Source: Archangium violaceum (GTDB lineage: Bacteria > Myxococcota > Myxococcia > Myxococcales > Myxococcaceae). Taken from it: a DNA stretch of 64,000 nt. Positions within the stretch are counted from its first letter, which is position 1; every line of letters begins with the position of its first letter. A program made the translations under genes and the position numbers. The notes below the pieces were generated by a model, which searched no databases, had not been told where the DNA came from, and was given only the letters and a program-made list of their open reading frames with translations. Shown here piece after piece: positions 22,478 through 56,255 of the stretch. Location: positions 4,615,001 through 4,679,000 of the forward strand of contig NZ_CP069396.1 in assembly GCF_016887565.1 (NCBI RefSeq). Direction: 5' to 3'.

Positions 22478-27505
<5,028 letters not shown>

Positions 27506-27526
27506 ACCCTTTACCCTCCCAGAACC

Positions 27527-30500: not shown

Positions 30501-31525
30501 TCTGGGAGGAGCTGCTCAACGTCCACCCCATCGGCATCCGGGACGACTTCTTCGCGCTGGGAGGCACCTCGCTGGTGGCGGTGCGGCTGATGCACCGCAT
30601 CCGCGAGACCTTCGGGCGCACACTGCCCATCTCCGCGCTCTTCAGCGCGAAGAGCGTGGAGGAGCTGGCGCTCCTGCTGCGCGAGAAGCAGGACCCGGTG
30701 GCCTGGACGCCGCTGGTGCCCATACAGCCCGGCGGCAAGCGGCGCCCGCTCTACTGTGTCCACCCGCTGGGCGGGACGGTGCTCGGCTTCGGCCCGCTCG
30801 CGCGAAGGCTGGGACCGGATCAGCCCTTCTTCGGCCTGGAGCACGTTCGGCCGGGCAAGCCGCCGAACCGGGTGGAGGCCATGGCCGCCGAGTACCTGGC
30901 CGCCATCCGCAAGCACCAGCCCCAGGGGTCGTACCGCCTGGCCGGCAAGTCCGTGGGAGGCCTGGTGGCCGTCGAGATGGCGCGCATGCTCCAGGCCGAG
31001 GGTCAGGAGGTGGAGCTGCTGGCCCTGTTGGGCACCGCCGTGCCGATGGATGATCGACCGGGCCCCAACGCGGAGTCCATCCAGGCCATGGCGCATCTCT
31101 CCAAGGAGGACGCGCTCGTCGCCAAGATCCTCCTGCAGTTCGGCCAGGAGTTCCCCGAGCTGCAGGAACTGGCCAGGATGAGCAAGGAGGAGAAGCTGAG
31201 CAAGGGCCTGCGCTTCGCCAAGGAGCACGGCGCGTTGCCGGCCGACTTCGGCGAGTCCCAGCTGGATCACCTCTTCTGGGCCTGGCACGCCGAGGCGGAG
31301 GCGTTCGACATCTACCGCGCGCAGTACTACGACGGCCACATCACCCACTTCGTCCCCGCGTGCGACGAGGGCAAGCCCGTCATGGACTGGAGCGGGTTGT
31401 GCCGCTCGTGGGAGGTGCACGTGGTGGCGGGCGAGCACGAGACGATCGACGACGAGCCGCACGTCGAGGTGCTCGCCAACGCGCTGGGGGGCTGCCTGCG
31501 CCGGCTGGACGGCGTGAAGCCCTAG
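27527..31525 (+). CDS. NRPS termination module, C-A-T-TE
   Basis: 1,332 residues. C domain about 20-455 (SFAQQRMWLL; HHIITDG with catalytic His155), A domain about 480-970 (YTSGSTGRPKG at 629), T with Ser1015 (LGGTSLV), type I thioesterase about 1065-1325. The TE nucleophile lies in GKSVGG (Ser1142) and the general base is His1304 (GEHETI). A-domain pocket residues D-L-F-N-N-A-L-T-Y match, from memory, an alanine code. With the preceding gene this gives a complete three-module line (Pro-like, hydrophobic, Ala) that releases its product by hydrolysis or cyclisation. The ribosome-binding site is poor, consistent with coupling to the gene upstream. A strong bidirectional hairpin lies 12 nt after the stop. 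Confidence 0.93.
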   Translation: MRRTETALDTPPGSDAADGERLPLSFAQQRMWLLHHYAPDVPLYNSPIAFRIRGSLSAPVLERGLRLLAERHEGMRTTFPTVDGMPQVAISDEVSFHLPVEDLQHLPPAAREEAALERATTEARRVFDMGQGPLWRALLLRLTPEEHLFVLTMHHIITDGWSMGLLCEELSRTYEALWKGTEPVLPELPLQYADFAAWQREWLSGDTLAAQLKYWKESLAGAPPVMELPTDRPRPAKNTYRAARHAFVLPASLTKPLEALSAKEGSTPFMILLSTFSALLGRYTRRDDIIVGTPIANRNRAEIERLVGFFVNTLVLRVRLDGNPSFRELLQRVRQVTLGAYDHQDLPFEKLVEELSPERNQSHSPIFQVLFDFATADLSLRLPGLEASHVRLDEGSTPFDVSVSLEKSGDSYGGYFTYNADLFESTTIARLERHYARLLGAALAQPERPVGDLPLLEADEEHRLLVDWNRTAFEPRADSTLHHLFERQVEATPEALALVVGTRRFTYRQLDERANQLAWHLRSLGVGPEVPVAVCLERTETLLVAILAVLKAGGAYVPLDPAYPSQRLAFSLADARSPLLLTQHSLAESMRGLGAPALLTLDEPEAFSHHPTHRPACPAESQHLAYVLYTSGSTGRPKGVAVQHASAAALVQWALNAFSTEQLSATLAATSVCFDLSIFELFAPLSCGGRVYLADNALALPSLPAASEVTLINTVPSAVTELVRQGALPASVRTVNLAGEPLPASLVQSLYGLGTVQSVYNLYGPTEDTTYSTWALAPRESSAPPPIGRPLPGTQAYVLDARLRPVPQGIPGELYLGGKGLARGYLGRPDLSAERFVPNPFSSTPGARMYRTGDRVRWRADGQLEYLERIDFQVKVRGFRIELGEVEQALLQHPAVREAVALARDGGPDGKQLVAYVTGPADQLGASALRSFLRERLPDYMVPSAFVVLEALPLTANGKVDRQALPAPVPSAGASRIHIPHRDRTEMLLCGIWEELLNVHPIGIRDDFFALGGTSLVAVRLMHRIRETFGRTLPISALFSAKSVEELALLLREKQDPVAWTPLVPIQPGGKRRPLYCVHPLGGTVLGFGPLARRLGPDQPFFGLEHVRPGKPPNRVEAMAAEYLAAIRKHQPQGSYRLAGKSVGGLVAVEMARMLQAEGQEVELLALLGTAVPMDDRPGPNAESIQAMAHLSKEDALVAKILLQFGQEFPELQELARMSKEEKLSKGLRFAKEHGALPADFGESQLDHLFWAWHAEAEAFDIYRAQYYDGHITHFVPACDEGKPVMDWSGLCRSWEVHVVAGEHETIDDEPHVEVLANALGGCLRRLDGVKP

Positions 31526-31536
31526 GCGCCCCCGGG

Positions 31537-31568
31537 GACGACCCTCGGCCTACTCGCCGAGGGTCGTC
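31537..31568. terminator. Bidirectional hairpin between NRPS and peptidase genes
   Basis: GACGACCCTCGG at 31537-31548 pairs perfectly (12 bp) with CCGAGGGTCGTC at 31557-31568 around an 8-nt loop. It sits between two convergent genes and overlaps the 3' end of the peptidase gene, whose stop codon lies in the loop. Confidence 0.75.
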
Positions 31569-33535
31569 ACCACCGCGGTCGAGCCCGGCACGCGCTCTCC
31601 GCCCAGGGGCTCCGCGCGTCCGCCCAGGCACCGGGCCAGGAAGGCCTCGACGCGGGCGTTGAAGTCCATGTTGTTCTCGGCGCGCGTGAGGCCGTGCCCC
31701 TCGTCCGGATAGAGGACGTAGGTGACCCGGCCGCCGCGCTTCTTGATCGCCGCGACGATCTGCTCGGCCTCGCTGACGGGCGCGCGGACGTCGTTGGCGC
31801 CCGCGCCCACCAGCAGCGGCCGTTCGATCCGATCCACGCGGAACAGCGGCGAGCCGGTCTCGAGGAGCTTCTCGTCCTGGGGGTTCCCCAGCTTGCCGAG
31901 GCGTGCATCGAAGAAGGCCCGCGCCCCTTCCCAATACGGCGGGATGTTGCGCAGCCACGAGATGAGGTTGGCCGGCCCCGAGTGGTCCACCGCGCAGGCG
32001 AACTTCTTCGGCGTGAAGGCCGCACCGGCCAGTGCCGCGTACCCGCCATACGAGAAGCCGTAGATGGCCACCCGCTCCGGATCCGCGTAGCCCTCGCGCA
32101 CGGCCCAGTCGACCGCGTCGACGAGATCGTCCTGCATGGCCAGCCCCCACTGGCGGTAGCTGGCGGCCATGAACTTCTTCCCGAAGCCCGAGGAGCCACG
32201 GAAGTTCACCTGCAGCACGGCGTAGCCGCGGTTGGCGAACCACTGGGTATACGGGCTGAAGCCCCACCAGTCGCGCAGCCAGGGGCCACCGTGCACGTAC
32301 ACCACCATGGGTAGCTTGCGCGCTGGCACGCCGAGCGGAAGCGTCAGGTACGCCTGGAGCTTCAGCCCATCGCGGGCCTCGAAGGAGACCGACCGCATGG
32401 GCGCCAGCGGCTGCTTCTCCAGCTCCGCCTGCTGGTGGAACAGGAACCGACCGCTCCGGGCCTGGCGGTCCCAGGCGTAGATGCGGGGCGCGCCCTTGTC
32501 GGTGGTGTACTGCACCAGCCAGAAGCGGTCCGAGTGATCCCTGCTGATGACGTTGAAGTCTCCATCGAAGAGCTTCTCCAGCCCCTCGAAGTCGGCCTTC
32601 ACCGCCGGGTCCACCACCGTCCAGCGCTTGCGCGCGGGATTGAAGGCCACCGCCTGGGCCTTCTGGGTGCGCGGATGGAGCAGCGGCTCGATCGCATCCG
32701 CCTCCTCGGAGGCCGCGAGCACCCGCTGCTTGCGGGTCTTGATCCCCATCTCGACCAGGCGCGCCTTGTCGCCACCGATCGAGCTGAGCAGCAGCAGGGC
32801 GCGGCCCTCATCGGCGAAGCCCATCACGTCGAGCAGCTCCTCCGGCCCCACCGTGAGGAAGGAGCGCCAGGGTGCCTTCTCGTCGTCCCGGACGCGGATC
32901 TCCGTCCCGCCGTCGCGGGAGGTGGTCACCAGCGCCCGGACGCGCAGCCGCGAATCGACGACCCAGCGGCTGACTCCGCCCGGATCCCTCGCCACCCGCT
33001 CCAGCGCGCCCGTGGAGAGGGTGAGGCGATAGATGTCCGTGAGGGTCCGGTCCTCCAGGTTGATGGACACCAGCAGCGTGTCCGGGAACGCGGGGGAGGA
33101 GGCCACCAGATCGGCGCGCACGCCCTCGACGGGGGTGTAGTCGCGCACGTTGCCCGTGGGAAGGTCCACCCCGAGGATGTGCCAGTTCTCGTCCCCGTCC
33201 TTGTCCTTGAAGAACAGCAGCGTGCGGCCGTCCTCCGCCCAGCGGAACGCATGGATGCCCCGCGGGTCCGACGTCACCGGCTTGCCCTTGTCGTTCCCCT
33301 CCAGCGAGCGCACCCAGACCTGCACGTGGTTGTGCTCGTCCGGTAGCAGGTAGGCCACCGACTTCCCATCGGGCGACAGCTGGGGGATGGCGTACGAGGT
33401 GGGATCGGCGATCGGCGGGGAGTCCTTGGGATTGCCGAAGAGGATCTCCCGGGGAATGAGCGGTGGAGGTTCGGCGCTCGCGGGAAGGGCGAGTGTCAGG
33501 GCGAGCAGGAGCGCGCGGGCGTTGAGGCGCAGCAT
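31550..33535 (-). CDS. Exported S9-family (prolyl oligopeptidase type) peptidase
   Basis: 661 residues from the ATG at 33535, where a signal peptide starts (MLRLNARALLLALTL, cleavage after PASA). A longer reading from GTG 33562 would overlap the upstream stop. The N-terminal half is a WD/beta-propeller-like region (about 40-380); the C-terminal alpha/beta-hydrolase has GFSYGG (Ser495), Asp582 (GANDVRAP) and His614 (DEGHGL). Family members cleave short peptides, often after Pro, here probably in the periplasm or outside. It lies directly after the M28 peptidase on the same strand (23 nt), so they are likely co-transcribed. Proximity to an NRPS with a Pro-like module is suggestive but may be chance, since these peptidases are common myxobacterial enzymes. 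Confidence 0.9.
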   Translation of the reverse strand: MLRLNARALLLALTLALPASAEPPPLIPREILFGNPKDSPPIADPTSYAIPQLSPDGKSVAYLLPDEHNHVQVWVRSLEGNDKGKPVTSDPRGIHAFRWAEDGRTLLFFKDKDGDENWHILGVDLPTGNVRDYTPVEGVRADLVASSPAFPDTLLVSINLEDRTLTDIYRLTLSTGALERVARDPGGVSRWVVDSRLRVRALVTTSRDGGTEIRVRDDEKAPWRSFLTVGPEELLDVMGFADEGRALLLLSSIGGDKARLVEMGIKTRKQRVLAASEEADAIEPLLHPRTQKAQAVAFNPARKRWTVVDPAVKADFEGLEKLFDGDFNVISRDHSDRFWLVQYTTDKGAPRIYAWDRQARSGRFLFHQQAELEKQPLAPMRSVSFEARDGLKLQAYLTLPLGVPARKLPMVVYVHGGPWLRDWWGFSPYTQWFANRGYAVLQVNFRGSSGFGKKFMAASYRQWGLAMQDDLVDAVDWAVREGYADPERVAIYGFSYGGYAALAGAAFTPKKFACAVDHSGPANLISWLRNIPPYWEGARAFFDARLGKLGNPQDEKLLETGSPLFRVDRIERPLLVGAGANDVRAPVSEAEQIVAAIKKRGGRVTYVLYPDEGHGLTRAENNMDFNARVEAFLARCLGGRAEPLGGERVPGSTAVVTTLGE

Positions 33536-33558
33536 GGGATCTCGGGTGTAGGGGTGGC

Positions 33559-35850
33559 TCACAGCTTCAGCTGGCGGGTGACGACGGTGACGTCGCCGTC
33601 CTCGAAGGAGATGGCTTCACGGTCGCGCGCCTGTCCGAGGCGCTGGCCCTCGGCGGGCAGGCCCGGAGACACGTCCCGGAGGAACAGCTTCAGGGGCTGG
33701 GTGGCGCCCAGCTCCAGGGTGATGGCCACGCCCTCGGGCGGCGGCTCGTGGATCTGGATCAGGTTCCAACCCCAGAGGCAGGCGTCGAACCCCCCCCGGC
33801 CCTTGGGGAGCTCCAGGCCCTGCACGGTAACGGCCTTCAGCTCGCTCTCCGGCGGCAGGGCGAGTTGCAGCCGTCCGGCGCGGCGCGAGGACGTGGCGGT
33901 GACGCGCATGCGGCGCGACCCGTTGGTGGACATGTCCTCGTTCACCACGAGCTCGGGGGCCGGGAGCGAGACCCCGGGTCCTTCCGCCAGGTACAGGAAT
34001 CCCTCCGGCTCCCAGGGGTAGAGACGGTCAAGGGTGCCGCCGAAGAGCTTCTCCGCTTCGAGCGAGGGCGGCAGCGGCACGCCCTCGTTGAAGGCGGCCC
34101 AGTGGGACTTGTGCGCGTCCGCGTCCTGGTGCAGCTCGAGGACGAGCCGGTTCGGCGTCTCCTGGGAGTGGGGCGGAGAGAGCGCCGCGGCCACGCAGGC
34201 GAGCGCCACGGCTCCGGCCATGGCCAGCCTGGCCGGGCGTTGCTGGAGCAAGGGGGCGAGCAACGGGGCGGCCAGACCCAGCACGAGCGCGCCGATGAAC
34301 GACCACAGCGCGGGCGGGCCCAGCCCGACCGCCAGGAAGAGGCACCAGGCCATTGGCACCCAGAGCAGGAGCGCGACCGCGAGCGGCGCGAGCAGGACGA
34401 GACCACGCGGACCCTGGCCTGGAGCACCGGGCAGGAGCATCGCGAGTGCCGCGGCGAGCGCGGGGAGCACGAAGAGGAAGCTGGCGCCGGGCAGGGCGAG
34501 CGCACACGCGAGCGCCAGCAGCACCATGAGACTCCACGCTCCCAGCCACAACCCCCAGCTCCCGGCACGGCGCTCCAGCCAGGAGGCGGCGAGGCCGGCC
34601 GCGAACAGGCCGAGCACGTAGAAGACCAGCGCATCGGCTTGCGGAGCAGGCAGCCAGGGCCGGTCCGTCACGCCCATGGCCCGCAGCGGCAACGCCACCA
34701 CCACCGCGAGCAGCACCGCCAGCGGGAGGGAGACGAGGCGGGCGAGCAGCCCCCAGGCGAACCCCTTCATTCCCAGCACCCCGGCTCGGCGCAGCCGGAA
34801 GGCTCCCAGCCCGAACAGCACGGCCGTGACGAGGCTCAGGGGCAGGGTGAGCCACCCCGGCCACCAGAAGACGGTCAGGCCGAGCACATCGAAGAAGACG
34901 GCATCGCTCGCGGCCGGGACGGGGAGTGCCTCCTCCTGGAGCCCGCGCAGCAGCGCCACCACATTGTCACCATGGTGCTGGATGCTGCGGGGGTCGAGCT
35001 GCTCCACCCGGTCGAGCGGCGTGTGGTAGTGCTCGGCGTCCCCGATGAAACCCAGGTTGAAGCCCTGCATGCCGGCGCGCACGAAGGGCGTGAGATCCGT
35101 CGAGTTTCCCATCTGCTGATAGATGGACGTGAAGGTGGAGTTGGCGATGGGGAAGGCCGTGCGCCGCGTGAAGAGCCGGACGAGGTTCTCGTTTCCGGCG
35201 CTCGTCTCGAACATCATGCTCGGACCGCTGGAGCCGCGGGCCTCGACGTTGAGGGCGACACGGATCTCCCGGGCGTAGGGGTGGGAGGCCGCGAAGGCGC
35301 GCGCTCCCAGCAGTCCGATTTCCTCACCGTCCGAGAAGAGGATGACCACTGGGTGGCGCGGCGCGGGCCCGCCCTTCAACATCCGGGCCACCTCGAGCAT
35401 GGTGGCCACGCCCGCTCCATCGTCCGAGGCGCCGGGCGACGTGGGCGCCGTGTCGTAGTGCGAGGCCAGGAGGATGGCGCCACCCGGCTCCGTCCCCTCG
35501 AGCCGGGCCACGATGTTGCGCACCGTCGCGCAGTTGCCGCAGCCGCCGCAGACGAAGGTCTCCTGAACGGTGGGGGCGTAACCCATCCGCGTGAGCTCGC
35601 CGAGGATCCGCTCGCGCACGCGCGCGTGGGCCTCCGAGCCCACCGGATGCGGTTCTCCCCCTTCGAGAATCCGCCGGAGCACCGAGAGCGCCCGCTCCGA
35701 GGAGAACGCGTCCGCGGGGGCGCTGGCGTCCCTGGGGGCCGGGCCCCGGTAGCGCAGGGCCGTCACCGCGAGGAGGAGTGCCAACAGCGAGAGCAGGGCA
35801 AGGGAGTGGAGACGAACGCCTCGTCGATCCATGGGGGCGCGACTCTCCAT
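33559..35850 (-). CDS. Membrane-anchored M28-family metallopeptidase
   Basis: About 763 residues from the ATG at 35850 (an alternative is 35832); frames further upstream run into the divergent FAAL gene. An N-terminal signal anchor (LALLSLLALLLAVTAL) precedes the M28 zinc-peptidase domain, about 40-320, with SHYDTAPTSPGASDDGAG, FSDGEEIGLLG, LNVEARG and AEHYHTPLDR carrying the usual His/Asp/Glu ligands. Eight or so hydrophobic helices follow (about 345-600) and then a soluble C-terminal domain. The layout is like ER/vacuolar M28 membrane proteases (Fxna/Pff1-like) and bacterial relatives. A CGGCGNC motif near residue 105 is unusual. The predicted role is extracytoplasmic aminopeptidase, substrate unknown. 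Confidence 0.88.
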   Translation of the reverse strand: MESRAPMDRRGVRLHSLALLSLLALLLAVTALRYRGPAPRDASAPADAFSSERALSVLRRILEGGEPHPVGSEAHARVRERILGELTRMGYAPTVQETFVCGGCGNCATVRNIVARLEGTEPGGAILLASHYDTAPTSPGASDDGAGVATMLEVARMLKGGPAPRHPVVILFSDGEEIGLLGARAFAASHPYAREIRVALNVEARGSSGPSMMFETSAGNENLVRLFTRRTAFPIANSTFTSIYQQMGNSTDLTPFVRAGMQGFNLGFIGDAEHYHTPLDRVEQLDPRSIQHHGDNVVALLRGLQEEALPVPAASDAVFFDVLGLTVFWWPGWLTLPLSLVTAVLFGLGAFRLRRAGVLGMKGFAWGLLARLVSLPLAVLLAVVVALPLRAMGVTDRPWLPAPQADALVFYVLGLFAAGLAASWLERRAGSWGLWLGAWSLMVLLALACALALPGASFLFVLPALAAALAMLLPGAPGQGPRGLVLLAPLAVALLLWVPMAWCLFLAVGLGPPALWSFIGALVLGLAAPLLAPLLQQRPARLAMAGAVALACVAAALSPPHSQETPNRLVLELHQDADAHKSHWAAFNEGVPLPPSLEAEKLFGGTLDRLYPWEPEGFLYLAEGPGVSLPAPELVVNEDMSTNGSRRMRVTATSSRRAGRLQLALPPESELKAVTVQGLELPKGRGGFDACLWGWNLIQIHEPPPEGVAITLELGATQPLKLFLRDVSPGLPAEGQRLGQARDREAISFEDGDVTVVTRQLKL

Positions 35851-36019
35851 TCCAGGTCCATCCATGTCAAGGCACGCCGCCGCTCGCCGGGAGGGCCACT
35901 CCCCGGGCATCTTCCAACCGGAATCCATCGTTGATTCCCCCGGGAGTGGGCCAGTACCCTCGCGCGCCCTGTAAGCCGCTTCGTGGCTCCAAACATTTCC
36001 TGACGAGGCTTCACAACAC
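35851..36019. promoter_or_regulatory. Divergent promoter region (M28 / FAAL)
   Basis: 169 nt between divergent starts. On the plus strand TTGATT (35931-35936) and TACCCT (35955-35960) are 18 nt apart and would give a leader of about 50 nt for the FAAL gene. The minus-strand promoter is not obvious. Confidence 0.3.
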
Positions 36020-38080
36020 ATGAGCTCAATCAGCAGCCGTCCGCTGTCCGCCCAGCGCGAGGCATTGGTCGATGTCCTTCGCACGTGGAGCGATGCGCAA
36101 CCAGACGCCCGGGCCTACACCTTCCTGTTGGATGGGGAGGGCGAGGAAGTCCACCTCTCCTACGGGCAGCTCGATCGCAATGCCCGCACCATCGCCAACG
36201 CGCTCCGGGCGCGCCTCCCCGTCGGCGGACGGGCCCTGCTGGTCTACCCGCCGGGCCTCGAGTTCATCGCGGCCTTCTACGGCTGCCTCTACGCCGGTGT
36301 GGTGGCGGTGCCCGTCTTCCCGCCCATGCCGGGCAAGTCTCCCGAGGCCCTCGAGCGCGTGGCCGCCGACTCCGGCTCGGCCGTGGCCCTCACCACCACC
36401 CTCATCCGCGACTTCGCCGAGCCCCTCCTGGACTCCTCGGAGGTCCTGAAGAAGCTCGAGTGGCTCAGCACGGATGATCTTCCGGACAGCAGCGCCAGCT
36501 GGCAGCGGCCCGAGCTGGAGCGCCGCTCGGTGGCCTTCCTCCAGTACACCTCCGGCTCCACCCGCGCCCCCAAGGGCGTGCGCGTGACGCACGAGAACCT
36601 CATGGTGCAGGAGGACTTCATCCAGAAGGCCTTCGAGCACGACGAGAAGACGGTCGTCGTCGGGTGGCTGCCGCTGTACCACGACATGGGGCTCATCGGT
36701 AACGTGCTCCAGCCCATGTACCTGGGCGGCCACTGCGTCCTCATGTCGCCGTTCGACTTCCTCGGCTCGCCGCTGCGCTGGCTGGAGGCCATCTCCCGCT
36801 ACCGCGCCACCACGAGCGGCGGCCCCAACTTCGCCTACGAGCTGTGCGTGCGCAGGTACCAGCCCGAGCGCGCGGCCGCGCTCGACCTGAGCAGCTGGAA
36901 GGTGGCCTACAACGGCGCGGAGCCCCTGCGCGCCGCCACCCTGGAGCGCTTCGCCCGGACCTACGCGCCCCACGGCTTCCGTGAGGGTGCCTTCCTGCCG
37001 TGCTACGGGCTCGCCGAGGCGACGCTCGCGGTGTCCGCCGGACGCCCGGTGTTCGCCAGCTTCGATCGGCGGGCGCTCGAGCGGCGCGAGGCCCTGGCCG
37101 CCCCGTCCGGTGCCGAGGAGTCCGTCACCCTGGTGGGCTCCGGCAGCTTGATGCTCGGAGACGTGCGGGTGGTGGATCCAGAGACGCGGGTGCAGTGCGC
37201 CCCGGGCGGCATCGGGGAGATCTGGATCTCCAACGCGTGCGTGGCCGACGGCTACTGGCAGTCCTCCGAGAGCGCGGCCACCTTCGACGCGCGGCTCACG
37301 AGCGGCGAGGGCCCCTTCCTGCGCACCGGAGACCTCGGCTTCCTGCGCGACGGCGAGCTCTTCGTCGTGGGCCGGCTCAAGGACATGCTCATCGTCCACG
37401 GGCGCAACTACTACGCGAACGACCTCGAGGCGACGGCCGAAGCGAGCTTCCCGGGGCTGCGTTCGGGATGCGGGGCCGCGTTCGCGCTGGAGAAGGACGG
37501 CGAGGAGCAGGTGGTGATCGTCCAGGAGATGGCCGAGTCCTCCACCGAGCGCTGCGCCGAGGCGGCCGAGGCGATCCGCCAGGCCATCACCACCACCCAT
37601 GGCATCCCGGTCGCGGCCGTCGTGCTGATCGAGCCCAAGAGCATCTTCAAGACCTCCAGCGGGAAGATCCGCCGGCAGGACTGCAAGAAGGCCTTCCTGG
37701 CCGGCACGTTGAAGGTGCTGGGCGAGCTCCGCTTCGACGCGCACGAGGCCGCCCCCGCCAGCGAGGCCCCCGGCACAGAGACGGAGCAGGCCATCGCCGG
37801 AATCTGGGCGGAGCTGCTCGGGCTGCGCGGGGAGCAGGTGGGCAGCGACACCGACTTCTTCTCCCTGGGCGGTGATTCCGTGCTCGCCGCGCAGGTCGTC
37901 AACCGCATTGGCGAGCAGTTCCAGGTGCAGGTGCGCCTGGAGGACGCGACGGCGGACTTCACCGTCCGCGGGCTCGCCCGGGCGGTGGACGCGCTGCTGC
38001 TCCAGAAGCTGGAGCAGATGTCGGACGCCGAGGCCGAGGCGCTGCTCGCCCGCTCGGGTGGCAAGGCCCAGGGCTCGTGA
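36020..38080 (+). CDS. Fatty acyl-AMP ligase fused to an acyl/peptidyl carrier protein
   Basis: 686 residues. Residues 10-570 are a FAAL-type adenylating enzyme: YTSGSTRAPKG at about 176, WLPLYHDMGLIG, GPNFAYELC, YGLAEATL, RTGDLGFLRDGELFVVGRLKDM and YANDLEATAE. These are FAAL hallmarks rather than CoA ligase or NRPS A-domain ones. Residues 585-660 are a carrier domain with Ser620 (LGGDSVLAAQ), followed by a tail (LEQMSDAEAEALLARSGG) of the kind found at carrier C termini before docking. The role is to activate a free fatty acid as acyl-AMP and load it on its own carrier as starter for a lipopeptide or polyketide line. The Arg in STRAPKG replaces the more usual Ser/Thr. The stop overlaps the next start (GTGA), implying coupling to the mutase-like gene. 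Confidence 0.92.
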   Translation: MSSISSRPLSAQREALVDVLRTWSDAQPDARAYTFLLDGEGEEVHLSYGQLDRNARTIANALRARLPVGGRALLVYPPGLEFIAAFYGCLYAGVVAVPVFPPMPGKSPEALERVAADSGSAVALTTTLIRDFAEPLLDSSEVLKKLEWLSTDDLPDSSASWQRPELERRSVAFLQYTSGSTRAPKGVRVTHENLMVQEDFIQKAFEHDEKTVVVGWLPLYHDMGLIGNVLQPMYLGGHCVLMSPFDFLGSPLRWLEAISRYRATTSGGPNFAYELCVRRYQPERAAALDLSSWKVAYNGAEPLRAATLERFARTYAPHGFREGAFLPCYGLAEATLAVSAGRPVFASFDRRALERREALAAPSGAEESVTLVGSGSLMLGDVRVVDPETRVQCAPGGIGEIWISNACVADGYWQSSESAATFDARLTSGEGPFLRTGDLGFLRDGELFVVGRLKDMLIVHGRNYYANDLEATAEASFPGLRSGCGAAFALEKDGEEQVVIVQEMAESSTERCAEAAEAIRQAITTTHGIPVAAVVLIEPKSIFKTSSGKIRRQDCKKAFLAGTLKVLGELRFDAHEAAPASEAPGTETEQAIAGIWAELLGLRGEQVGSDTDFFSLGGDSVLAAQVVNRIGEQFQVQVRLEDATADFTVRGLARAVDALLLQKLEQMSDAEAEALLARSGGKAQGS

Positions 38081-39489
38081 ACATGAACGATCCCGGAAGA
38101 GTGCTCATCCTTGGCAGCGGCCCCACGGGGCTCGGTGCGGCCTACCGGCTCCAGGAGCTGGGCGTGAAGGACTTCCAGCTGCTCGAGCTGGGGGCGGGGC
38201 CCGGAGGACTGGCGGCGAGCCACGTCGATCCCCAGGGCTTCACGTGGGACCTGGGCGGTCACGTCCAGTTCAGCCACTACTCCTATTACGACGCGGTCCT
38301 GGATCTCGCGCTGAAGGACGCGTGGCTCTGGCACGAGCGCGAGTCGTGGGTGTGGCTCAAGGAGCGGTTCGTTCCCTATCCGTTCCAGAACAACATCCAC
38401 CGGCTGGACGCGCGGGACCGGGAGCGCGTGCTCGCGGACCTGCGCGCCGCCGCCTCGGCCCGGACGGGAGCCGGGCGCCCCGCCAACTTCGGGGAGTGGC
38501 TCCGGTGGAACTTCGGCCAGGCGCTCTGTGAGCTCTTCATGGAGCCGTACAACGCCAAGGTCTGGGGATGCCCGCCCTCGCACATGGGCGTGAGCTGGAT
38601 GGGCGAGCGGGTGGCCGTCCCCGACGTGGCGCGGATCGAACGCAACATCCAGGAGAACCGGGACGACGTTTCCTGGGGACCCAACAACCGCTTCCGCTTC
38701 CCCCTGCACGGAGGCACGGGGGGCATCTGGGAGGGGGTGGCCGGGCTGCTCGACCCCAGCCGCCTGTCCTTCGGGTGCAACGTGGTGCGAGTCGAGCTCG
38801 ACGCGCGGGTGGTCGTCCTCGAGGACGGCAGGCGCTTTTCCTACGACACGCTCATCTCCACCCTGCCCATCGACGTCCTCTCGCGCATCTGCGACCCGCT
38901 CCCGCCCGAGGTCCGGCGGGCCGGCGGCCAGATGCGCTACAGCTCCGTGCACGTGCTCGGGGTGGGGCTGCGACACGGCATGCCGGAGAGCCTCTCCAAG
39001 AAGTGCTGGATGTACTTCCCCGAGGAGCACAGCCCCTACTACCGGGTGACGGTGTTCTCGAACTACTCGCCGAACCACGTGCCCGAGGGTGGGGGCTACT
39101 GGTCCCTCATGGCCGAGGTCTGCGAGTCCCCGACCCGGCCGCTGTCCACCTCCGACCTGAAGGGCTGGACGCTGAAGGCCATGCGCCAGGACGCCCTCAT
39201 CCCTCCCGACGCGGAGGTGGTCAGCTTCTGGCACACGCGCCTGGACCACGGGTACCCCACGCCCTTCGTCGGCCGCGACGAGCTCCTCGCCCAGATCCAT
39301 CCCGCGTTGGAGGAGAAGCGCGTGTTCTCACGCGGCCGCTTCGGTGGCTGGAAGTACGAGGCCGGCAACCAGGACCACTGCTTCATGCAGGGCGTGGAGC
39401 TGGTGGACCGGCTCACACTTGGAAGGCCGGAGGTCACCTACCCGGATCCGAACCGGGCGAACTCCGGCATCTTCCTGACGAAGAGCTGA
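38077..39489 (+). CDS. UDP-galactopyranose mutase homologue of eukaryotic type (FAD)
   Basis: 470 residues from GTG 38077, which overlaps the FAAL stop; ATG 38083 is equally possible. The Rossmann FAD motif GSGPTGLGAA is at about 11-20. Blocks I recognise from fungal/protozoal UDP-galactopyranose mutases occur in order: FTWDLGGHVQFSHYSY, VPYPFQNNIHRL, LFMEPYNAKVWG, SWGPNNRFRFP plus GGTGGIW, YSSVHVLGVG, KCWMYFPEEHSPYYRVT, FSNYSP, FDHGYPTP-like LDHGYPTP, SRGRFGGWKYEAGNQDH and GVELVDRL. These are more like the eukaryotic than the classical bacterial Glf branch. The likely reaction is UDP-Galp to UDP-Galf, supplying a furanose donor. A glycosyltransferase gene lies convergently 11 nt away. An alternative is a related FAD sugar or amine oxidoreductase. 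Confidence 0.82.
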   Translation: MNMNDPGRVLILGSGPTGLGAAYRLQELGVKDFQLLELGAGPGGLAASHVDPQGFTWDLGGHVQFSHYSYYDAVLDLALKDAWLWHERESWVWLKERFVPYPFQNNIHRLDARDRERVLADLRAAASARTGAGRPANFGEWLRWNFGQALCELFMEPYNAKVWGCPPSHMGVSWMGERVAVPDVARIERNIQENRDDVSWGPNNRFRFPLHGGTGGIWEGVAGLLDPSRLSFGCNVVRVELDARVVVLEDGRRFSYDTLISTLPIDVLSRICDPLPPEVRRAGGQMRYSSVHVLGVGLRHGMPESLSKKCWMYFPEEHSPYYRVTVFSNYSPNHVPEGGGYWSLMAEVCESPTRPLSTSDLKGWTLKAMRQDALIPPDAEVVSFWHTRLDHGYPTPFVGRDELLAQIHPALEEKRVFSRGRFGGWKYEAGNQDHCFMQGVELVDRLTLGRPEVTYPDPNRANSGIFLTKS

Positions 39490-39505
39490 GGGCGCGGGAC
39501 TCAGC
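39485..39505. terminator. Short hairpin over two convergent stop codons
   Basis: GCTGAG (39485-39490) pairs with CTCAGC (39500-39505) around a 9-nt loop and includes both stop codons of the convergent genes, which are only 11 nt apart. It is weak but well placed. Confidence 0.35.
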
Positions 39506-41495
39506 GGCTCCGGCGGCGCTCGATGAGGCGCTGGAAGAACTCCATCAGCCGGGGCAGCTGGTCATCGAAGCAGAAGGCGCTCCGGGCCTGGCGCATGTTC
39601 CGGGTGAGCTGCTGGAGCCGGGCCCGATCGCGCAGCTGCTGGGCCAGCTCCTGGCCGTTGTTGGCGAAGATGCCCACGTCGAGCCGCCGGGCCAGCGTGT
39701 CGAGCGCCACCCGCGAGTGGCTGTTGTCCCGGAGGATCCACGGCAGGCCCGCGGACGCATACGTCCCCAGGCGCGCCGGCAGGTTGAAGTCGATCCAATC
39801 CGCGCGGCGGAGATCTCCCCCGTTGCGGCTGGTGAAGATGTGGCACCAGGCGGCGTCGTACTGGGAGAGCACGCGCACCCAGTCCGCCACGCCGACGGGC
39901 GGGTGCAGGTGGACGAGCCCGCTCGCCTTGAGCTGCGCGAGCATCTCCGGGGGGGCGTTCTGGAAGAGGGCCCCTCCGTACAGGTGCACGTGGATGCCCG
40001 CCTGGAGGACGGACATGACGAACTCGGCGGCCTGGGGGCTCTCCCGCGGATCCAACCCCAGGGGGCGGCCCGTGCACACGGTGTGCAACTGCCCATCCTT
40101 CTCGGACAGCTTCGGGGACCACTCCTCCGTCATCCACTCCCGCTTGACCAGGTCTCCGTCCAGGAACAGCACGTTCTCCGGCTTCAGCATCCCGTCGGTG
40201 GCGTACTGGTACCACTCCAAGGACTCCTCGTTGATGAGGATCTGCCCGTCGCTCCGGGCGAGCACGCGCATCAGCGTGGGCCACAGTCCCCGCTGGAAGC
40301 AGAAGAACGGCGCTTCCTTGAAGTGGAAGGCCATGGGGATGCCCAGGTTGGCGTCCAGGACGGTGTCGATCAGCGGCAGCGCCTGCCAGTTCAGCAGGGC
40401 GTAGATGATGTCCGGTTGGATCTCCCGCACCCGCTCGCGCCAGCGGGAGTCGGCCGGGATGTTCTCGATGTTGCCGTACGCGGTGGTGCTCGCCGTGTCC
40501 CAGATCTCCGCGCGCGACCACATCCCGTACAGCCGGTGCCCCTGCTCCTCGAACGCGACGAGCCGCTCGGCGTTGAACCCGAGCTCGCCCACCAGGAGGA
40601 TCTTCAACCCCTTGCGCGCCGGCGGCGGGCGCTGCTGGCGCCAGCGCCCGTAGGTGGCGCGCTCGTCCACGGGGAAGCCCCTGGAGGGCTGCCAGTTGAG
40701 GGCCTCGCCCTGGGCGATGCCGTAGTGCTCCCGGTAGCGGGACAGCCCGCCATGGAAGACGTTGAGGATGAGGTCGCGCCGGTTCTCGGTGTGCAGCACC
40801 CGCTCGCAGCTGATGGCCCCCGCGTAGGCGAAGGTGGCGCCGCGCGACAGCAGCCCCCACCAGAAGTCGGGCTCGAGCCTGTCCGAGACCTGCTCCTCGC
40901 GCGGCGTCCAGCGATGCTCGGCCTCCAGCGTCCGCCGGTGCATCACCTGCACGAGCGCCAGCAGGTTGTTGTCCTCGGGGTTGCCGCGGACCCGGCTGAG
41001 CGCTTCCGCCTCGGCGTTCGCCGGCACCGCGCCCTGGAGCGTCGGCTCCTGCTTGTCGAGCGTCCAGTACATGCCGCGGCCGATCTGATCGCTGCTCTCG
41101 GGGCGGGCACTCCAGCGCACGCCGCCATAGGCCAGGTAGACGTCCGGCCGCGCGTCGAGCAGCGCCACCAGCCGCTCCAGGTGCTCGGGGTAGTACACGT
41201 CGTCCGAGGGCAGGTACGCGATGTACTGGCCGCGCGCCATGCCGGTCGCCAGGTTGAGGGCGTTGCCCAACCCGCGGTTGCGCTCCAGGCGGTGGTAGCG
41301 GATCCGCGGCTCGGCGAGGTAGGGCGCGAGCACCTGCCGCGTGTCATCGTCGGAGCCGTCATCGATGATGATCAGCTCCCAGTCCTTCAGGTGCTGCGCC
41401 TTCAGTCCCTCCAGCGCCCTGCGGAGGAAGGAGGACTGACGGTACGTCGGCATCAGGATGGAAACGCGCGGTGTCTGTGTCTGAGGTGTATGCAC
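39501..41495 (-). CDS. Two-domain glycosyltransferase (GT2 plus GT-B-like)
   Basis: 664 residues from a GTG at 41495; no ATG is nearby. The N-terminal 240 residues are a GT2 (GT-A) domain: VSILMPTYRQSSFLRRAL, IIIDDGSDDDTR, RNRGLGNALN and the metal-binding LPSDDVYYPEHL. After a Pro-rich linker (RQQRPPPARKG), residues about 300-650 look like a GT-B or CgeB-like domain (LKILLVGELGFNAERLVAF, HTVCTGRPLG, HLHPPVGVADWVRVL, ARLGTYASAGLP). The enzyme may add one or two sugars, to the product of this cluster or to the cell surface. It is the last gene of the minus-strand unit that begins with the large NRPS, 52 nt after the exporter gene, and it converges on a sugar-mutase gene. The substrate cannot be read from sequence. 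Confidence 0.82.
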   Translation of the reverse strand: MHTPQTQTPRVSILMPTYRQSSFLRRALEGLKAQHLKDWELIIIDDGSDDDTRQVLAPYLAEPRIRYHRLERNRGLGNALNLATGMARGQYIAYLPSDDVYYPEHLERLVALLDARPDVYLAYGGVRWSARPESSDQIGRGMYWTLDKQEPTLQGAVPANAEAEALSRVRGNPEDNNLLALVQVMHRRTLEAEHRWTPREEQVSDRLEPDFWWGLLSRGATFAYAGAISCERVLHTENRRDLILNVFHGGLSRYREHYGIAQGEALNWQPSRGFPVDERATYGRWRQQRPPPARKGLKILLVGELGFNAERLVAFEEQGHRLYGMWSRAEIWDTASTTAYGNIENIPADSRWRERVREIQPDIIYALLNWQALPLIDTVLDANLGIPMAFHFKEAPFFCFQRGLWPTLMRVLARSDGQILINEESLEWYQYATDGMLKPENVLFLDGDLVKREWMTEEWSPKLSEKDGQLHTVCTGRPLGLDPRESPQAAEFVMSVLQAGIHVHLYGGALFQNAPPEMLAQLKASGLVHLHPPVGVADWVRVLSQYDAAWCHIFTSRNGGDLRRADWIDFNLPARLGTYASAGLPWILRDNSHSRVALDTLARRLDVGIFANNGQELAQQLRDRARLQQLTRNMRQARSAFCFDDQLPRLMEFFQRLIERRRSR

Positions 41496-41547: not shown

Positions 41548-42882
41548 TCAGGCCTGTCCGACGTCCGGCTGCCGGGGACGGATCAGGGCGGGGTTGAAGA
41601 GCTGGACCACCGAGAAGACGAGGTACCCGGCGGCGAGCGTGGCGAGCACCTTGCCCGGATCCGTCGCCGCGCTGGCCAGCCCGGCGATGACGGTGCCCGC
41701 GGGCGCGGTGCACAGGGCGATCACCCGGCGCACGGAGAAGACGCGGCCCTGGAGCTCCAGCGGCGTCTGCTGCTGCCACAAGGTGAGTGATGCCGCGTTC
41801 ACCATCGGTGGAACGGTCCCCGTCAGGAAGAGCAGGCCCGCGGCCACGTAGAGATCCCTGTTGAGGCCGAGCAGCACCAGGGTCACCCCGCTGAGGATCA
41901 TGGGCACCAGGACGCCGTAGATCTGCCTGGACTTGAGCCCTCCCCACACGCTGATGGTGATGCCACCAGTCACCGCGCCCAGGCCGAAGCACGTCTGGAG
42001 CAGGGCGAGCGCGGTCTCGAAGCGGAAGCCCCGGGCGGTCCAGTCCGCGGCGAGGTCGAACTTGAGGATGAGCGGCTGGAGCACCTGCAGGGGCCCGATG
42101 ACCACGTTGGCGACGGCGAAGAGCCCCAGCAGCCAGAGCAGGGCGGGGCGCTCCCAGATGAAGCGCGCCCCCGAGACGATGTCCGCCCGGAGGCCCGGAC
42201 CGGCCTGCTGCTCGGAGGCGGCGGGCGCCGGGGAGACCTGGGGGAAGCGCAGGAAGAGCAGCGTCACCGCCGACACCAGGAAGGAGACGCAGTCGAGCGC
42301 GATGACCAGCGGCGTGCCGTCCACCGTACCGGACAGCGAGTGCACCGGCAGGGCGATGAGCAACGCGGCCACGGAGGGCGCGAGCACGCTCGAGATGGCG
42401 TAGGAGGCCTGGATCATCCCGTTGGCCCGGCCGAGCTGCTCCGGGGGGACGAGGGAGGCCTGTGACGACTCGAAGGCCGCCGTGTGGAACGCACTGAACG
42501 TGGCGAGCAGCACGGTGATGAGCAGGAGCGCGGGCAGGGAGAGCTTCCCCGTCAGCATCAGGAGCAGCGGTGCCACGCCCAGGACGGCGCTGGCGAAGTC
42601 CGCCGCCAGCAACGTCCGGCGGCGGTCGTGGCGGTCCGCCCAGGCGCCGGCCACGGGGGCCAGCAGGACGGAGGGCAGCAGGAAGGCGAGCGCCACCGCC
42701 GAGAGCGCGAACGACAGCTGCCCCTTCTGCTCGGGTGCCGGGTACAGCCTGTTTGACAGCCACACCGTGAGGGAGAAGAAGGTCAGCTGGCTGCCGAAGA
42801 CGGAGATGGACTGCGAGAGCCACACCGTCAGGAACATCCGCATGCCGCGGACCGGCTCCACCTCACGGGTCGCGTCACTCAT
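41548..42882 (-). CDS. MFS exporter
   Basis: 444 residues from the ATG at 42882, which lies 7 nt after the upstream stop; a longer in-frame start overlaps the dioxygenase gene and reads as nonsense. About 11-12 hydrophobic helices are present. The start FLTVWLSQSISVFGSQLTFF and the loop GAWADRHDRRRTLL (motif A-like) mark it as a member of the MFS_3/EntS-type group of small-molecule exporters. It probably exports the NRPS/PKS product and gives self-protection. It is translated in the NRPS > dioxygenase > exporter > glycosyltransferase unit. Confidence 0.9.
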   Translation of the reverse strand: MSDATREVEPVRGMRMFLTVWLSQSISVFGSQLTFFSLTVWLSNRLYPAPEQKGQLSFALSAVALAFLLPSVLLAPVAGAWADRHDRRRTLLAADFASAVLGVAPLLLMLTGKLSLPALLLITVLLATFSAFHTAAFESSQASLVPPEQLGRANGMIQASYAISSVLAPSVAALLIALPVHSLSGTVDGTPLVIALDCVSFLVSAVTLLFLRFPQVSPAPAASEQQAGPGLRADIVSGARFIWERPALLWLLGLFAVANVVIGPLQVLQPLILKFDLAADWTARGFRFETALALLQTCFGLGAVTGGITISVWGGLKSRQIYGVLVPMILSGVTLVLLGLNRDLYVAAGLLFLTGTVPPMVNAASLTLWQQQTPLELQGRVFSVRRVIALCTAPAGTVIAGLASAATDPGKVLATLAAGYLVFSVVQLFNPALIRPRQPDVGQA

Positions 42883-42889
42883 CGTCGTG

Positions 42890-43648
42890 CTAGGCCCCCG
42901 CCGCCGCGCGATCGCCGCCGCGCAGGGCCTTGTCGAAGATGGGGAACAGGTAGTTGAGCGCCTGGATCTCCACCTCGGTGAGATCCGGGTGCCAGATGTC
43001 CCACAGGAGGATCGTCCGCACCTCGGTGCCCTTGTGCCACACCTCGTGGATGAAGCTGTCGTCGAAGATGAGGCACTTGCCTGGCGTCCAGCCGCGGACC
43101 TCGTCACCCACGCGGATGGAGCAGCCCTCGGGGATGATCAGCCCCAGGTGGCAGGTGAGCACCACGTTCACGCCGCCGGTGTGGGGCGTCAGGTGCGCGC
43201 CGGGGTTGAGCCGCGTGAACATGCCCTGGCGCACGCCGCGCGGGGACTTCTCCAGCAGCTGGATCGTCTGCGGGCAGCGGGCGGCGTTCTTCTCGTGCCG
43301 CTTGCCCTTGCGGTAGAGCGTATAGGTGTCCCAGCCCTTCCAGCCGAGCTCCAGGGTGTAGGGATCCTCGTACGGGAAGAAGCCCGCCTTGGTCTCCTGC
43401 AGGCCCTTCAGCTCGCCGAGGACGGTCTCCCACGAGCGCTCGATATCCGCGACCCAGGGGAAGTCCGCGGTGTCGTGCCACCCCTTGGCGCTCAGCCCGG
43501 GGAAGTACAGGCGCGTGGGCTCCTGCTGCGGGTGGGGATAGACCGGGGTCTTCTCGCCACTCATGTACCGCAGGCACTCCTCCACCCGCTCCAGCCCCTG
43601 GCTGGAGAAGCGGCGCGTCAGCTCATCGAGGATGTTCTTAGTGTCCAT
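42890..43648 (-). CDS. Aspartyl/asparaginyl beta-hydroxylase-type Fe(II)/2-oxoglutarate dioxygenase
   Basis: 252 residues. The core is the AspH fold (PF05118 type): LNPGAHLTPHTGG (first metal His), LGLIIPEGCSIRVGDEVRGW, GKCLIFDDSFIHEVWHKG (second metal His) and RTILLWDIWHPDL (Arg that binds 2-oxoglutarate). Family members with this two-His triad hydroxylate beta-carbons of Asp/Asn or similar residues. Its ATG overlaps the 3' end of the large NRPS gene by 11 nt, so the two are co-translated. The natural reading is hydroxylation of an amino acid, free or carrier-bound, or of the acyl chain of this product. The exact substrate is unknown. Confidence 0.87.
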   Translation of the reverse strand: MDTKNILDELTRRFSSQGLERVEECLRYMSGEKTPVYPHPQQEPTRLYFPGLSAKGWHDTADFPWVADIERSWETVLGELKGLQETKAGFFPYEDPYTLELGWKGWDTYTLYRKGKRHEKNAARCPQTIQLLEKSPRGVRQGMFTRLNPGAHLTPHTGGVNVVLTCHLGLIIPEGCSIRVGDEVRGWTPGKCLIFDDSFIHEVWHKGTEVRTILLWDIWHPDLTEVEIQALNYLFPIFDKALRGGDRAAAGA

Positions 43649-46600
43649 CGTTCTCGTTCCCGGGCTTGCCCGTCCGGGGGGGTTGTGCGCGCCGCTCCAT
43701 CAGTTTCCGCATGGCGGCGCGGCGGTTTTCGGCTTGCGTCTGGTGCTGCTCCGTCGACGGTGGGGGCGGCGGCGCCTGGGTGAGCCAACGGGCCAGCGCG
43801 CTCACCGTGGGGTACTGCAGCAGGTTGACGAGCGGCACCGGCTGTCCCAGGGCCTGCTCCAGCCGGTTCTGCACCTGGACGAGGAGCAGTGAGTGGCCAC
43901 CCAGGTCGAAGAAGTTGTCGTGCGCGCCCACCTTCTCCAGCCCGAGCACCTGCTGCCAGATCTCCGCGATCGTCCGCTCGCGCCCGGCCGAGGGGCCCAC
44001 CCAGCCCGCCTCCAGCTCGGGGCGGGGCGGGGGAGGGGCGGGCAGGGCGGGGCGATCGATCTTGTTCGTGCTCGTGCGCGGCAGCTTGTCCAGGAAGACG
44101 AAGAAGGAGGGCACCATGAAGGCGGGCAGCTGCCGGGAGAGGTGTTCCCGCAGCTCGGACGAGGGCAGCGTCCGCGAGGCCACCACGTACGCGACGAGGC
44201 GCGGCTCCTCCGTCTTCTCCGCCGGGCGCACCACCACGGCGCACTCCACCACCGACTCGTGGCGCCCGAGCACCGTCTCCACCTCGCCCAGCTCCACCCG
44301 GTTGCCGCGGATCTTCACCAGATGGTCCGCGCGTCCGAAGAACTCCAGCGTTCCATCCGGGCTCAGCCGCGCGAAGTCGCCGGTGCGGTAGACGCGGTCG
44401 TCCTCGCGCCCGGTGAGCGGGTTGGCCAGGAAGGCCTTCCGCGTCTCCTCCGGACGCCGGTAGTAGCCGCGCGTGAGGTAGCGGCTGCGGATGTAGACCT
44501 CACCCTTGGCTCCGGGCGGGGTGGGGCGCTGGCGCGCGTCGAGCAGCAGCAGTTGTCTGCCGTCGATGGGCCGGCCCACCGGGATGGATCTCGCCCAGGC
44601 CGGAACCTCGCGCACGGCGTGGTGCGTGGCGAGCACCGTTTCGGTGGGGCCGTAGAGGTTGATGAGCTTCGGGCGCGGGCCGAAGCGCTCCAGCCACGCC
44701 CGGGCGAAGGGGATCGGCAGGGGCTCACCCGACAACAGCACGTACTCCAGCTCCGGGAAGGCCGCGCCTCCCGCGGAGGGCCCGAGGCTCTCCAGGAAGC
44801 GGGCGGCGAAGCTCGGCACCGTCTGGAAGAGGTGGATGCGCTCGCGGCGCAGCCAGTCCGCCATGGCGGTCGGACTGACGCGGATCGCCACGGGGGCCAG
44901 GCTCGCCGTCGCGCCGAAGCACAGCGCGCCCAGCAGCTCGCAGTAGCAGGCGTCGTAGGTGATGGGGGACCAGATGGCGATCCGCTTCGGGGCCACCATC
45001 CCGAACTCGGCGGACTGCCACTCCAGGAACTGCCGGAAGCTCCGGTGGGACTGCTCGATCCCCTTGGGACGGCCGGTGGAGCCGGAGGTGTAGACGATGT
45101 AGGCCGCGTCCTCCGGCCGTGCGCGCCCGCGCAACCCCTCGCCATCTCCCGGGCCCGCCACCGTCGTCGCGTCCAGCACCCAGGGCACCTGGGCCGCCAG
45201 CTCCGGGTGGGCCGCGAGCGCCGGGGGCTCGGTGACGAGACACGCGGGGCCCACGTCCTCGAGGATCTGCCTCAGGCGGCCATCGGGGTGGAGGACATCC
45301 AGGTAGACCATGGCGCCGCCCGCCTTGAGCACCGCCAGACCGGCGGCGATCTGATCCAGGCCGGCGTCGAACAGCAGGGCCACGGGCGAGCCCGGAGCCA
45401 CGCCGCGCTCGACGAGGGCGTGTGCCAGCTGGTTGGCGCGTGCGTCGAGCTGCGCGTACGTCCACTCCCGGCCCTCGAGGGAGACCGCGATGGCGTCCGG
45501 CGCCCGGCGGGCGTGGTCCTCGAAGAGCTCGTGCAGGCACCGATCGCCCGCGGCGCTCACTGGCTCGGGAACGGGCGCGAGCAATGCCTCCAGCTCCTGG
45601 GCGGAGAGCAGGGGCAGCTCCGAGAGCCGCGCCTCCGGCCGTGCCACCACCGCCTCGAGCAGGACCCGGAGCTGGCCCACCCAGCGGGAGATGGTGCGGG
45701 CATCGAAGAGGGCCGTGTCGTAGTTGAGCCAGCCGCTCAGCCCCTCGGGCGTGGGCTCCAGCATGAGCGTCAGATCGAACCGGGCGGTGGTGACCGGCAC
45801 CTCCAACCGCTCCACCCGCAGGTCTCCCATGCGCAGCTCGCCCACGGGGGCGTTCTGCAGGATGAGCATCACCTGGAAGAGGGGCGAGTAGCCCGGATCC
45901 CGCTCGGGCCGGAGGGCCTCCACCACCTTGGGAAACGGCGTCTCCTGGTGCGCGTAGACGCGCAGCGCCGTCCGCCGCACGCGCCCGAGCAGCTCGAGGA
46001 AGGTGGGATCTCCCCCGAGCTCACCCCGGAAGACGAGCGTGTTGACGAAGTAGCCGATCAGCTCGGCCAGCTCGGGGCGTTCCCGATTGGCCACGGGCGC
46101 GCCGACCCGGATGTCCTCCTGGCCCGTGTAGCGGTGGAGCAGCGTCTGGAACGCCGCCAGCAGGGTCATGAAGAGCGTGGCGCCCTCGCGCTGGCTCAGG
46201 GCCTCCAGGGCCTCCACCAGCGGCCGTGGCAGCCGCACCCGCTCGATGGCGCCCTCGGCGCTCTGCTTCGGTGGCCGGCGGTAGTCGGTGGGCAGCTCCA
46301 GCCGCGGTGCCTCCGGCAGCTCCTGGCGCCAGAAGGCCAGCTCCGCCTCCAGCTTCTCGCCCGAGAACGCCTGGCGGTGCCATGCCGCGTAGTCGGTGAA
46401 TTGGAGGGGAAGGGCGGACAGCGGCGAGGGACGGCCCGCCGTGAAGGACGCGTACAGCGCCCCCAGCTCGTGCGCCAGCACGCCAGCGGACCAGCCATCC
46501 CAGACGATGTGATGGATGACCAGCAGCAGCGCGTGCTCGTTCGGAGCCAGCCGGAAGAGGGTGAAGCGCAGCAGCGGGCCTCGGGCGAGATCGAACGGCC

Positions 46601-54450: not shown

Positions 54451-54478
54451 GTCCCCCACCATGCGTCAGGAATCCTGG

Positions 54479-56209: not shown

Positions 56210-56255
56210 TGGCTCACCGCTTTCCGTGCTTCCATGCACCGCTGCGAGGAGACTG

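Follow-up and report, generated by a model that had tools for sequence, protein, structure and literature searches.

The window analysed here is a stretch of 64,000 nucleotides of the Archangium violaceum genome (contig NZ_CP069396.1, positions 4,615,001 to 4,679,000), and the gene at 38077-39489 on its forward strand almost certainly encodes a UDP-galactopyranose mutase (UGM) of the fungal/protozoan type, a flavin adenine dinucleotide (FAD) enzyme of 470 aa whose assignment draws on PDB and Pfam searches, a tree, a structural model and a comparison of ligand contacts. Taken by itself the enzyme is unremarkable within a family already known; the new part is its setting, among genes for a fatty-acyl-AMP ligase (FAAL), non-ribosomal peptide synthetases (NRPS) and polyketide synthases (PKS). 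It is probable that the UGM supplies UDP-galactofuranose and that galactofuranose ends on the lipopeptide-polyketide made by this cluster, where we infer both the identity of the sugar and its acceptor. A bolder reading, held tentatively, would make the UGM and a neighbouring two-domain glycosyltransferase a dedicated galactofuranosylation unit of the FAAL-NRPS-PKS cluster, derived from the bacterial stem lineage of the fungal and protozoan UGMs.

The open reading frame is intact, running from a GTG at 38077-38079 to a stop codon at 39487-39489, and an in-frame ATG at 38083, two codons downstream of the GTG, is a possible alternative start. A sequence-only reading of the window had claimed this frame and had seen in it blocks resembling fungal and protozoal UGM; the three that it quoted (VPYPFQNNI, KCWMYFPEEHSP and SRGRFGGWKYEAGNQDH) are all present in the translation. 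Compared with the PDB by phmmer, the protein matches the UGM of Trypanosoma cruzi (4dsg) at E 6.3e-143 over residues 8-463 and that of Aspergillus fumigatus (3ute) at E 1.7e-126 over two stretches that together span residues 9-460. Matches at E<=0.01 comprise 19 distinct sequences, the first 14 of which are these two UGMs or their mutants and the others weakly matching flavoproteins; no bacterial Glf is among the 19. Likewise, GLF (PF03275) is absent from the six Pfam families that match at E<=1. The only Pfam families above their cut-offs are Amino_oxidase and NAD_binding_8, and NCBIfam returns only sub-cut-off matches, the best being the 'hypothetical protein' model PRK07208; automatic annotation could miss the identity of the enzyme. 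On a single alignment, the window UGM is 48.6% identical to the T. cruzi enzyme and 43.8% to that of A. fumigatus, which are themselves 48.8% identical to each other. Fungal and protozoan UGMs are described as 47-60% identical within their group and 14-18% identical to bacterial Glf (PMC3624792, in the part available), which places the window enzyme within the group, its 43.8% to A. fumigatus being slightly below the reported range.

The fold points the same way. An AlphaFold model built from 20 aligned sequences (the window protein and 19 relatives) has a mean pLDDT of 89.9, and in a Foldseek search with this model ranks 1-34 are all occupied by the T. cruzi or A. fumigatus UGM. The VIA Z is 49.5 to T. 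cruzi 4dsh and 45.4-48.0 to A. fumigatus entries, against 26.3-30.5 (16-20% structural identity) to bacterial UGMs among the matches listed and at most 30.6 to protoporphyrinogen oxidases, so that the two eukaryotic UGMs are structurally far ahead of protoporphyrinogen and amine oxidases. The impression of the sequence-only reading that the protein does not look like bacterial Glf is thus borne out, both by the missing PF03275 match and by Z values of 45-49.5 as opposed to 26-30.5. With classical Glf (PF03275; Escherichia coli 1i8t, Klebsiella pneumoniae 2bi7 and others) the window enzyme has in common the overall flavin fold and the reaction expected of it, but it is about 100 residues longer. 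With the UGMs of T. cruzi (4dsg, 4dsh) and A. fumigatus (3ute and others) it shares the full-length sequence, the fold, a GGH loop and 13 tabulated substrate contacts; it differs from them in its bacterial host and in the coupling of its gene to a FAAL gene in an NRPS/PKS cluster, and from the A. fumigatus enzyme at three FAD contacts.

The contacts of the A. fumigatus enzyme (AfUGM) are taken from a table in the available part of PMC3624792. All 13 contacts of UDP-galactopyranose (UDP-Galp) are kept in the window protein (Y104, F106, Q107, F158, N163, W167, R182, N207, Y317, R327, Y419, Y453 and N457), and nine of the 12 tabulated FAD contacts (T18, D38, S39, L46, G62, H63, V64, V242, R447, G456, Q458 and S461) are identical, the exceptions being D38E, S39L and S461C; T. 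cruzi UGM itself has E38 and C39. Retention of the uridine- and FAD-contacting residues had been named beforehand as a check on the family assignment, and the enzyme passes it. A flavin loop with two glycines (G61-G62-H63 in AfUGM) is called unique to eukaryotic UGMs in the same source; it is present in the window UGM and in 24 of the 25 bacterial UGM-type sequences with letters at that place, and is therefore not unique to eukaryotes. The catalytic residues of T. cruzi UGM discussed in the available part of PMC4192007 (His62, Arg176, Asn201, Arg327, Tyr395 and Tyr429) share one numbering offset, and at the A. fumigatus positions corresponding to them the window UGM has retained the residues. 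Because fold and catalytic positions are kept, the flavin N5-sugar mechanism of the T. cruzi enzyme can be transferred by homology: the N5 of the reduced FAD would attack the anomeric carbon of UDP-galactopyranose, the sugar would open and reclose as a five-membered ring, and UDP-galactofuranose would be released. The protein is very likely a mutase with UDP-galactose as its main substrate. Classical Glf (PF03275) is not found at E<=0.001 in the window genome, a single contig of 13,213,980 bases, by a search that was positive as a control in 4 of 14 genomes; the same genome has seven galE-like places, one of them over the family cut-off.

Relatives of this UGM were collected with short peptide patterns taken from its sequence, which recovered 21 loci from an 84,980-species collection; counts of relatives are lower bounds because of this manner of finding them. 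Most come from metagenome-assembled genomes whose phylum labels are those of the genome titles, and the labels span seven phyla: Verrucomicrobiota, Acidobacteriota, Myxococcota, Pseudomonadota, Planctomycetota, Actinomycetota and Armatimonadota, the last with one frame-shifted member (L026). Within the phylum of the window, a further five genomes carry the type (G035, G009, G011, G142 and G171; 46-82% identical). At E<=1e-40 it is present in four of 96 genomes of the family, namely the window genome (G000), G035 (82%), G009 (52%) and G011 (48%); the other five genomes from the genus of the window do not have it. A tree was calculated from 38 sequences, including those of T. cruzi and A. fumigatus as the two eukaryotic representatives; four of 42 rows were left out (the frame-shifted half of L026, L036 and L042, which contain stops, and L027, which lies on the same contig as L032), and the fragment L025 was never included. 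The 26 UGM-type sequences form a clade (support 100/100) with both eukaryotes inside it and, outside, the 12 members of a paralogue family that is roughly 30% identical. Within this clade, T. cruzi and A. fumigatus fall in a group of eight (96/91) together with Acidobacteriota, one myxobacterial sequence and the pair formed by the window and G035; this pair joins two sequences of Thermoanaerobaculia (Acidobacteriota) in a clade of four (100/99), whose union with the eukaryotes is weakly supported (81/74). Forcing the 24 bacterial UGM-type sequences together without the eukaryotes is rejected by the approximately unbiased (AU) test (p-AU 0.0106). As far as sequences tell, the eukaryotic UGMs nest among the bacterial ones; with two eukaryotic sequences in the tree, no exact sister is claimed. 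Placement with a generic amine-oxidase family, which the sequence-only reading had named as refuting its proposal, is not what the tree shows, since the window protein falls with the UGMs; by structure, too, these rank well above amine oxidases. The label 'eukaryotic-type' holds as a match to the fungal and protozoal family and fails as a statement of origin, the type being spread over bacteria.

A second, UGM-like family, about 24-31% identical, is represented by 14 loci (L033-L045 and L002, the latter in the window genome itself at G000:C1:9676669-9677946). All 14 members keep Q107, F158, N163, N207, W315, Y317, R327, Y419, R447 and Y453 of AfUGM and have a histidine at position 66; R182 is kept in none (12 F, 2 Y), and neither is N457 (9 S, 3 A, 1 T, 1 G). 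In the four members scanned, NCBIfam yields only 'hypothetical protein' models below cut-off. From these residues the family looks like a UDP-sugar flavoenzyme with an altered sugar pocket.

The UGM gene lies between a FAAL gene and a glycosyltransferase gene. Upstream, at 36020-38080 on the forward strand, is a FAAL fused to a carrier domain (686 aa; Pfam AMP-binding 8e-65, PP-binding 9e-15, and AMP-dom_DIP2-like), whose best NCBIfam resemblances are to FAALs, all below their cut-offs. Its TGA stop at 38078-38080 overlaps the GTG of the UGM at 38077 in the sequence GTGA (38077-38080), as had been claimed at the outset. Downstream, and convergent with the UGM, is a glycosyltransferase gene (39501-41495, reverse strand; 664 aa), and NRPS genes occur on both sides. 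The glycosyltransferase has an N-terminal GT-A domain of family 2 (GT2; Pfam Glycos_transf_2, 2.4e-31, residues 11-120); its resemblance to PDB chains is limited to about the first 150 residues, the best matches being chondroitin synthase and SpsA, for the GT-A domain only. Its C-terminal part is possibly a second transferase domain. In the C-terminal 370 or so residues, Rossmann-like/GT-B-like segments are apparent by eye and were confirmed by no tool. A GlfT2-like (mycobacterial) identity, considered for the length of the protein, was rejected: GlfT2 is not among the PDB matches listed and the GT-A domain is N-terminal. At E<=1e-25 the protein is found in three of the 96 family genomes, at full length in the window genome and G035 and over residues 8-125 only in G052.

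The limits of the cluster follow from comparison with G035, a member of another genus of the same family, in which an 80-kb stretch was searched by tblastn. The core genes lie there in one order within 35 kb at 79-90% identity: FAAL 84%, UGM 82%, glycosyltransferase 83%, NRPS3 79%, PKS1 87% (residues 66-1110), PKS2 84% (for the part inside the window), SnoaL-like protein 87%, acyl-CoA dehydrogenase 83%, NRPS4 86% and aromatic amino acid lyase 90%. A GNAT gene (85%) follows in the same order. By comparison, transport genes vary: where the window has a major facilitator superfamily (MFS) transporter between the glycosyltransferase and NRPS3, G035 has a P450 together with an ABC transporter, and its FAAL and UGM are separated by another ABC transporter. 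Because the UGM and the glycosyltransferase are kept while the transporters differ, both belong to the cluster. A block at 22478-36084 (NRPS A-T-C-A-T, NRPS C-A-T-TE, and S9 and M28 peptidases) has no counterpart at the syntenic place in G035, whose GNAT gene directly precedes the FAAL, and the idea that all NRPS genes of the window form one cluster was rejected on this ground; within this block, the plus-strand frame at 33748-35934 has no Pfam match and the minus-strand frame is the M28 peptidase. The gene content indicates that the conserved core holds FAAL, UGM and glycosyltransferase, whereas the transporters can be exchanged, and so can the two NRPS genes that flank it. The description of the UGM as lying inside an NRPS region is accordingly right insofar as NRPS genes stand on both sides, but only part of them are in its conserved cluster.

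Several readings of the enzyme itself compete with that of a UDP-galactopyranose mutase. The best Pfam name would make it a generic amine oxidase with FAD, or else a tailoring enzyme that oxidises the peptide, and the families above cut-off offer nothing else; this is very improbable and was rejected, as the whole UGM substrate site is kept, the best structural matches are all UGM and the next family is 15 Z units lower. Recent capture of the gene from a fungus or protist is more improbable still, and was also rejected. The weakly supported union of the window group with the eukaryotic UGMs speaks for it; however, the closest sequences in the tree after G035 are from Acidobacteriota, the topology setting bacteria apart from eukaryotes is rejected, and the GC content of the gene (0.687, and 0.932 at third codon positions) is that of its neighbours. 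As the type spans many bacterial labels and the eukaryotes nest within the bacteria, the gene is no recent acquisition from a eukaryote. Less remote, yet rather improbable, is a pyranose-furanose mutase for some other UDP-sugar such as UDP-arabinopyranose or UDP-N-acetylgalactosamine, leading to a product with another furanose. Arabinofuranose does occur on the myxobacterial macrolides gulmirecin and disciformycin (PMC11852209, in the part available), a bacterial-type mutase is titled UDP-N-acetylgalactopyranose mutase in the PDB (4mo2), and the window enzyme departs from AfUGM at 38, 39 and 461. These three positions, however, are FAD contacts in the AfUGM table, with E at 38 also in T. cruzi, and the tabulated sugar contacts R182, N207 and N457 are all kept.

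The more serious competitor, unlikely as it is, accepts a genuine UGM and concerns the destination of the sugar: galactofuranose would go to a polysaccharide or lipid of the cell surface, and the NRPS/PKS genes would be no more than neighbours of the UGM gene. UGM normally serves surface glycans (PMC3624792, in the part available), an NRPS cluster is the context of the UGM in two genomes only, and relatives adjoin glycosyltransferases in loci that contain no NRPS. A glycosyltransferase was found by Pfam directly beside the UGM in six of eight loci scanned for immediate or near neighbours (GT2 in L007, L008, L009 and L012; GT1/4 type in L051 and L053). This supports work on nucleotide sugars in general, and also the surface-glycan alternative. 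Profiles made from locus glycosyltransferases matched 11 of 25 loci and were not used, six of the 25 loci and the window having trained them and the two matches at L019 and L021 being weak and some kilobases away. Other observations also weigh against delivery of the sugar to the lipopeptide. No glycosyltransferase is seen in L050 and L052 (six and four open reading frames scanned), and elsewhere in bacteria this UGM type sits in surface-glycan genes, as in L051, where an ABC protein with a Wzt_C domain, as in O-antigen export, lies two genes away. The glycosyltransferase of the window resembles no characterised galactofuranosyltransferase among the PDB matches listed, its C-terminal 374 residues match no PDB chain at E<=5, and its AlphaFold model, made from a single sequence, has a mean pLDDT of 38.5. 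Synteny rests on one second genome, and since an ABC transporter gene separates FAAL from UGM in G035, the direct overlap is specific to the window genome; joint production with the lipid-activating FAAL, as first proposed, is thus suggested by operon-like coupling here but not by an overlap kept in G035. Against the surface-glycan alternative, the interval between 36020 and 64000 contains one glycosyltransferase and no other polysaccharide genes that could be seen, UGM and glycosyltransferase are present in both genomes that have the NRPS/PKS set in common, and none of the other five genomes of the genus has the UGM at E<=1e-40. Delivery to the lipopeptide-polyketide is for these reasons preferred: the UGM would be expressed from the same operon as the FAAL, by which the fatty acid is loaded, and the glycosyltransferase, which we infer to use UDP-galactofuranose as donor, would move galactofuranose onto the product of the FAAL, two conserved NRPS and two conserved PKS.

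That product can be sketched from the remaining genes of the core, identified by Pfam. Beyond the MFS transporter (41548-43107, reverse; not at that place in G035) lie NRPS3 (43638-50192, reverse; 2184 aa, C-A-T-C-A-T), the PKS1 module (50635-53976, forward; KS-AT-ACP), the SnoaL-like protein (54401-54910, forward), an acyl-CoA dehydrogenase family protein (54956-56239, reverse), NRPS4 (56256-60635, reverse; C-A-T), an aromatic amino acid lyase/aminomutase of the MIO family (60663-62189, reverse; 1e-167) and the start of the PKS2 module (62356-64000, forward), whose gene continues 2921 bases past the window as AT-KR-ACP. A FAAL with its carrier, NRPS and PKS modules thus stand in one conserved set, as in a FAAL-loaded lipopeptide NRPS/PKS system. 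A-domain codes, read against a stretch of PheA, are DILQVGAIWK and DACQLSLLAK for the two A domains of NRPS3 and DILQLGMVWK for NRPS4; the first and third look like codes for glycine, and the second was not recognised. Between the halves of the NRPS4 A domain with the glycine-like code, at residues 743-1056, lies a luciferase-like monooxygenase, an arrangement resembling that of myxothiazol MtaG. With the proteins taken in a hypothetical order, a plausible product would combine the FAAL-loaded fatty acid with two residues, one malonate unit, a glycine in oxidised form and a further malonate unit that is reduced. Of 195 genomes of the phylum, two have the MIO gene at E<=1e-120, namely the window genome and G035, and its protein scores higher in the PDB with histidine ammonia-lyases (343 bits) than with tyrosine aminomutases (246 bits). 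The only thioesterase found lies at 27527-31525, outside the conserved core, whose enzymes showed no releasing domain in Pfam. Elsewhere in the window, a very large frame of 4070 aa with tetratricopeptide repeats (1-12213, forward) is open at the window edge; downstream of the cluster (L054:6511-18055) are a 1537-aa protein with HYDIN/Cep192-like Ig domains and type VI secretion-like genes (IcmF helical domain, TssF).

In a partial survey of the open-access PMC literature, neither a UGM clustered with NRPS/PKS genes nor this UGM type in bacteria was found described. A Corynebacterium locus has a mutase which, named rfbD and assigned to COG0562, is presumably of the classical Glf type. In the available part of PMC6712304, which tabulates the mutase under this name and number, this corynomycolate/arabinogalactan locus is like the present cluster in joining a UGM and glfT2 with lipid genes in a 'BGC', but it is a cell-wall locus. 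Clostrienose from Clostridium acetobutylicum is a polyketide with a rhamnopyranoside and a galactofuranoside (PMC5686105, in the part available), so a bacterial specialised metabolite bearing galactofuranose is already known, and the opinion of the sequence-only reading that galactofuranose on a lipopeptide would be unusual is to be softened to that extent, attachment in the present case being a proposal. In clostrienose, unlike the product envisaged here, rhamnose precedes galactofuranose, the sugar genes are not clustered and, according to the same source, the glycosyltransferases are unclear. The gulmirecins and disciformycins of Pyxidicoccus fallax are likewise myxobacterial products with a furanose sugar, but they are macrolides with arabinofuranose, and the available part of PMC11852209 makes no link to a UGM.

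If the preferred reading is true, galactofuranose, which humans lack and which is recognised in microbes, should be found on the product of this orphan cluster, and the cluster would provide both the donor-making and the donor-using enzyme for a glycolipopeptide. The UGM class that has been called eukaryotic occurs widely among bacteria, and therefore statements on drug targets and evolution that divide 'prokaryotic' from 'eukaryotic' UGMs need rewording; its bacterial relatives are also easy proteins for studying this class.

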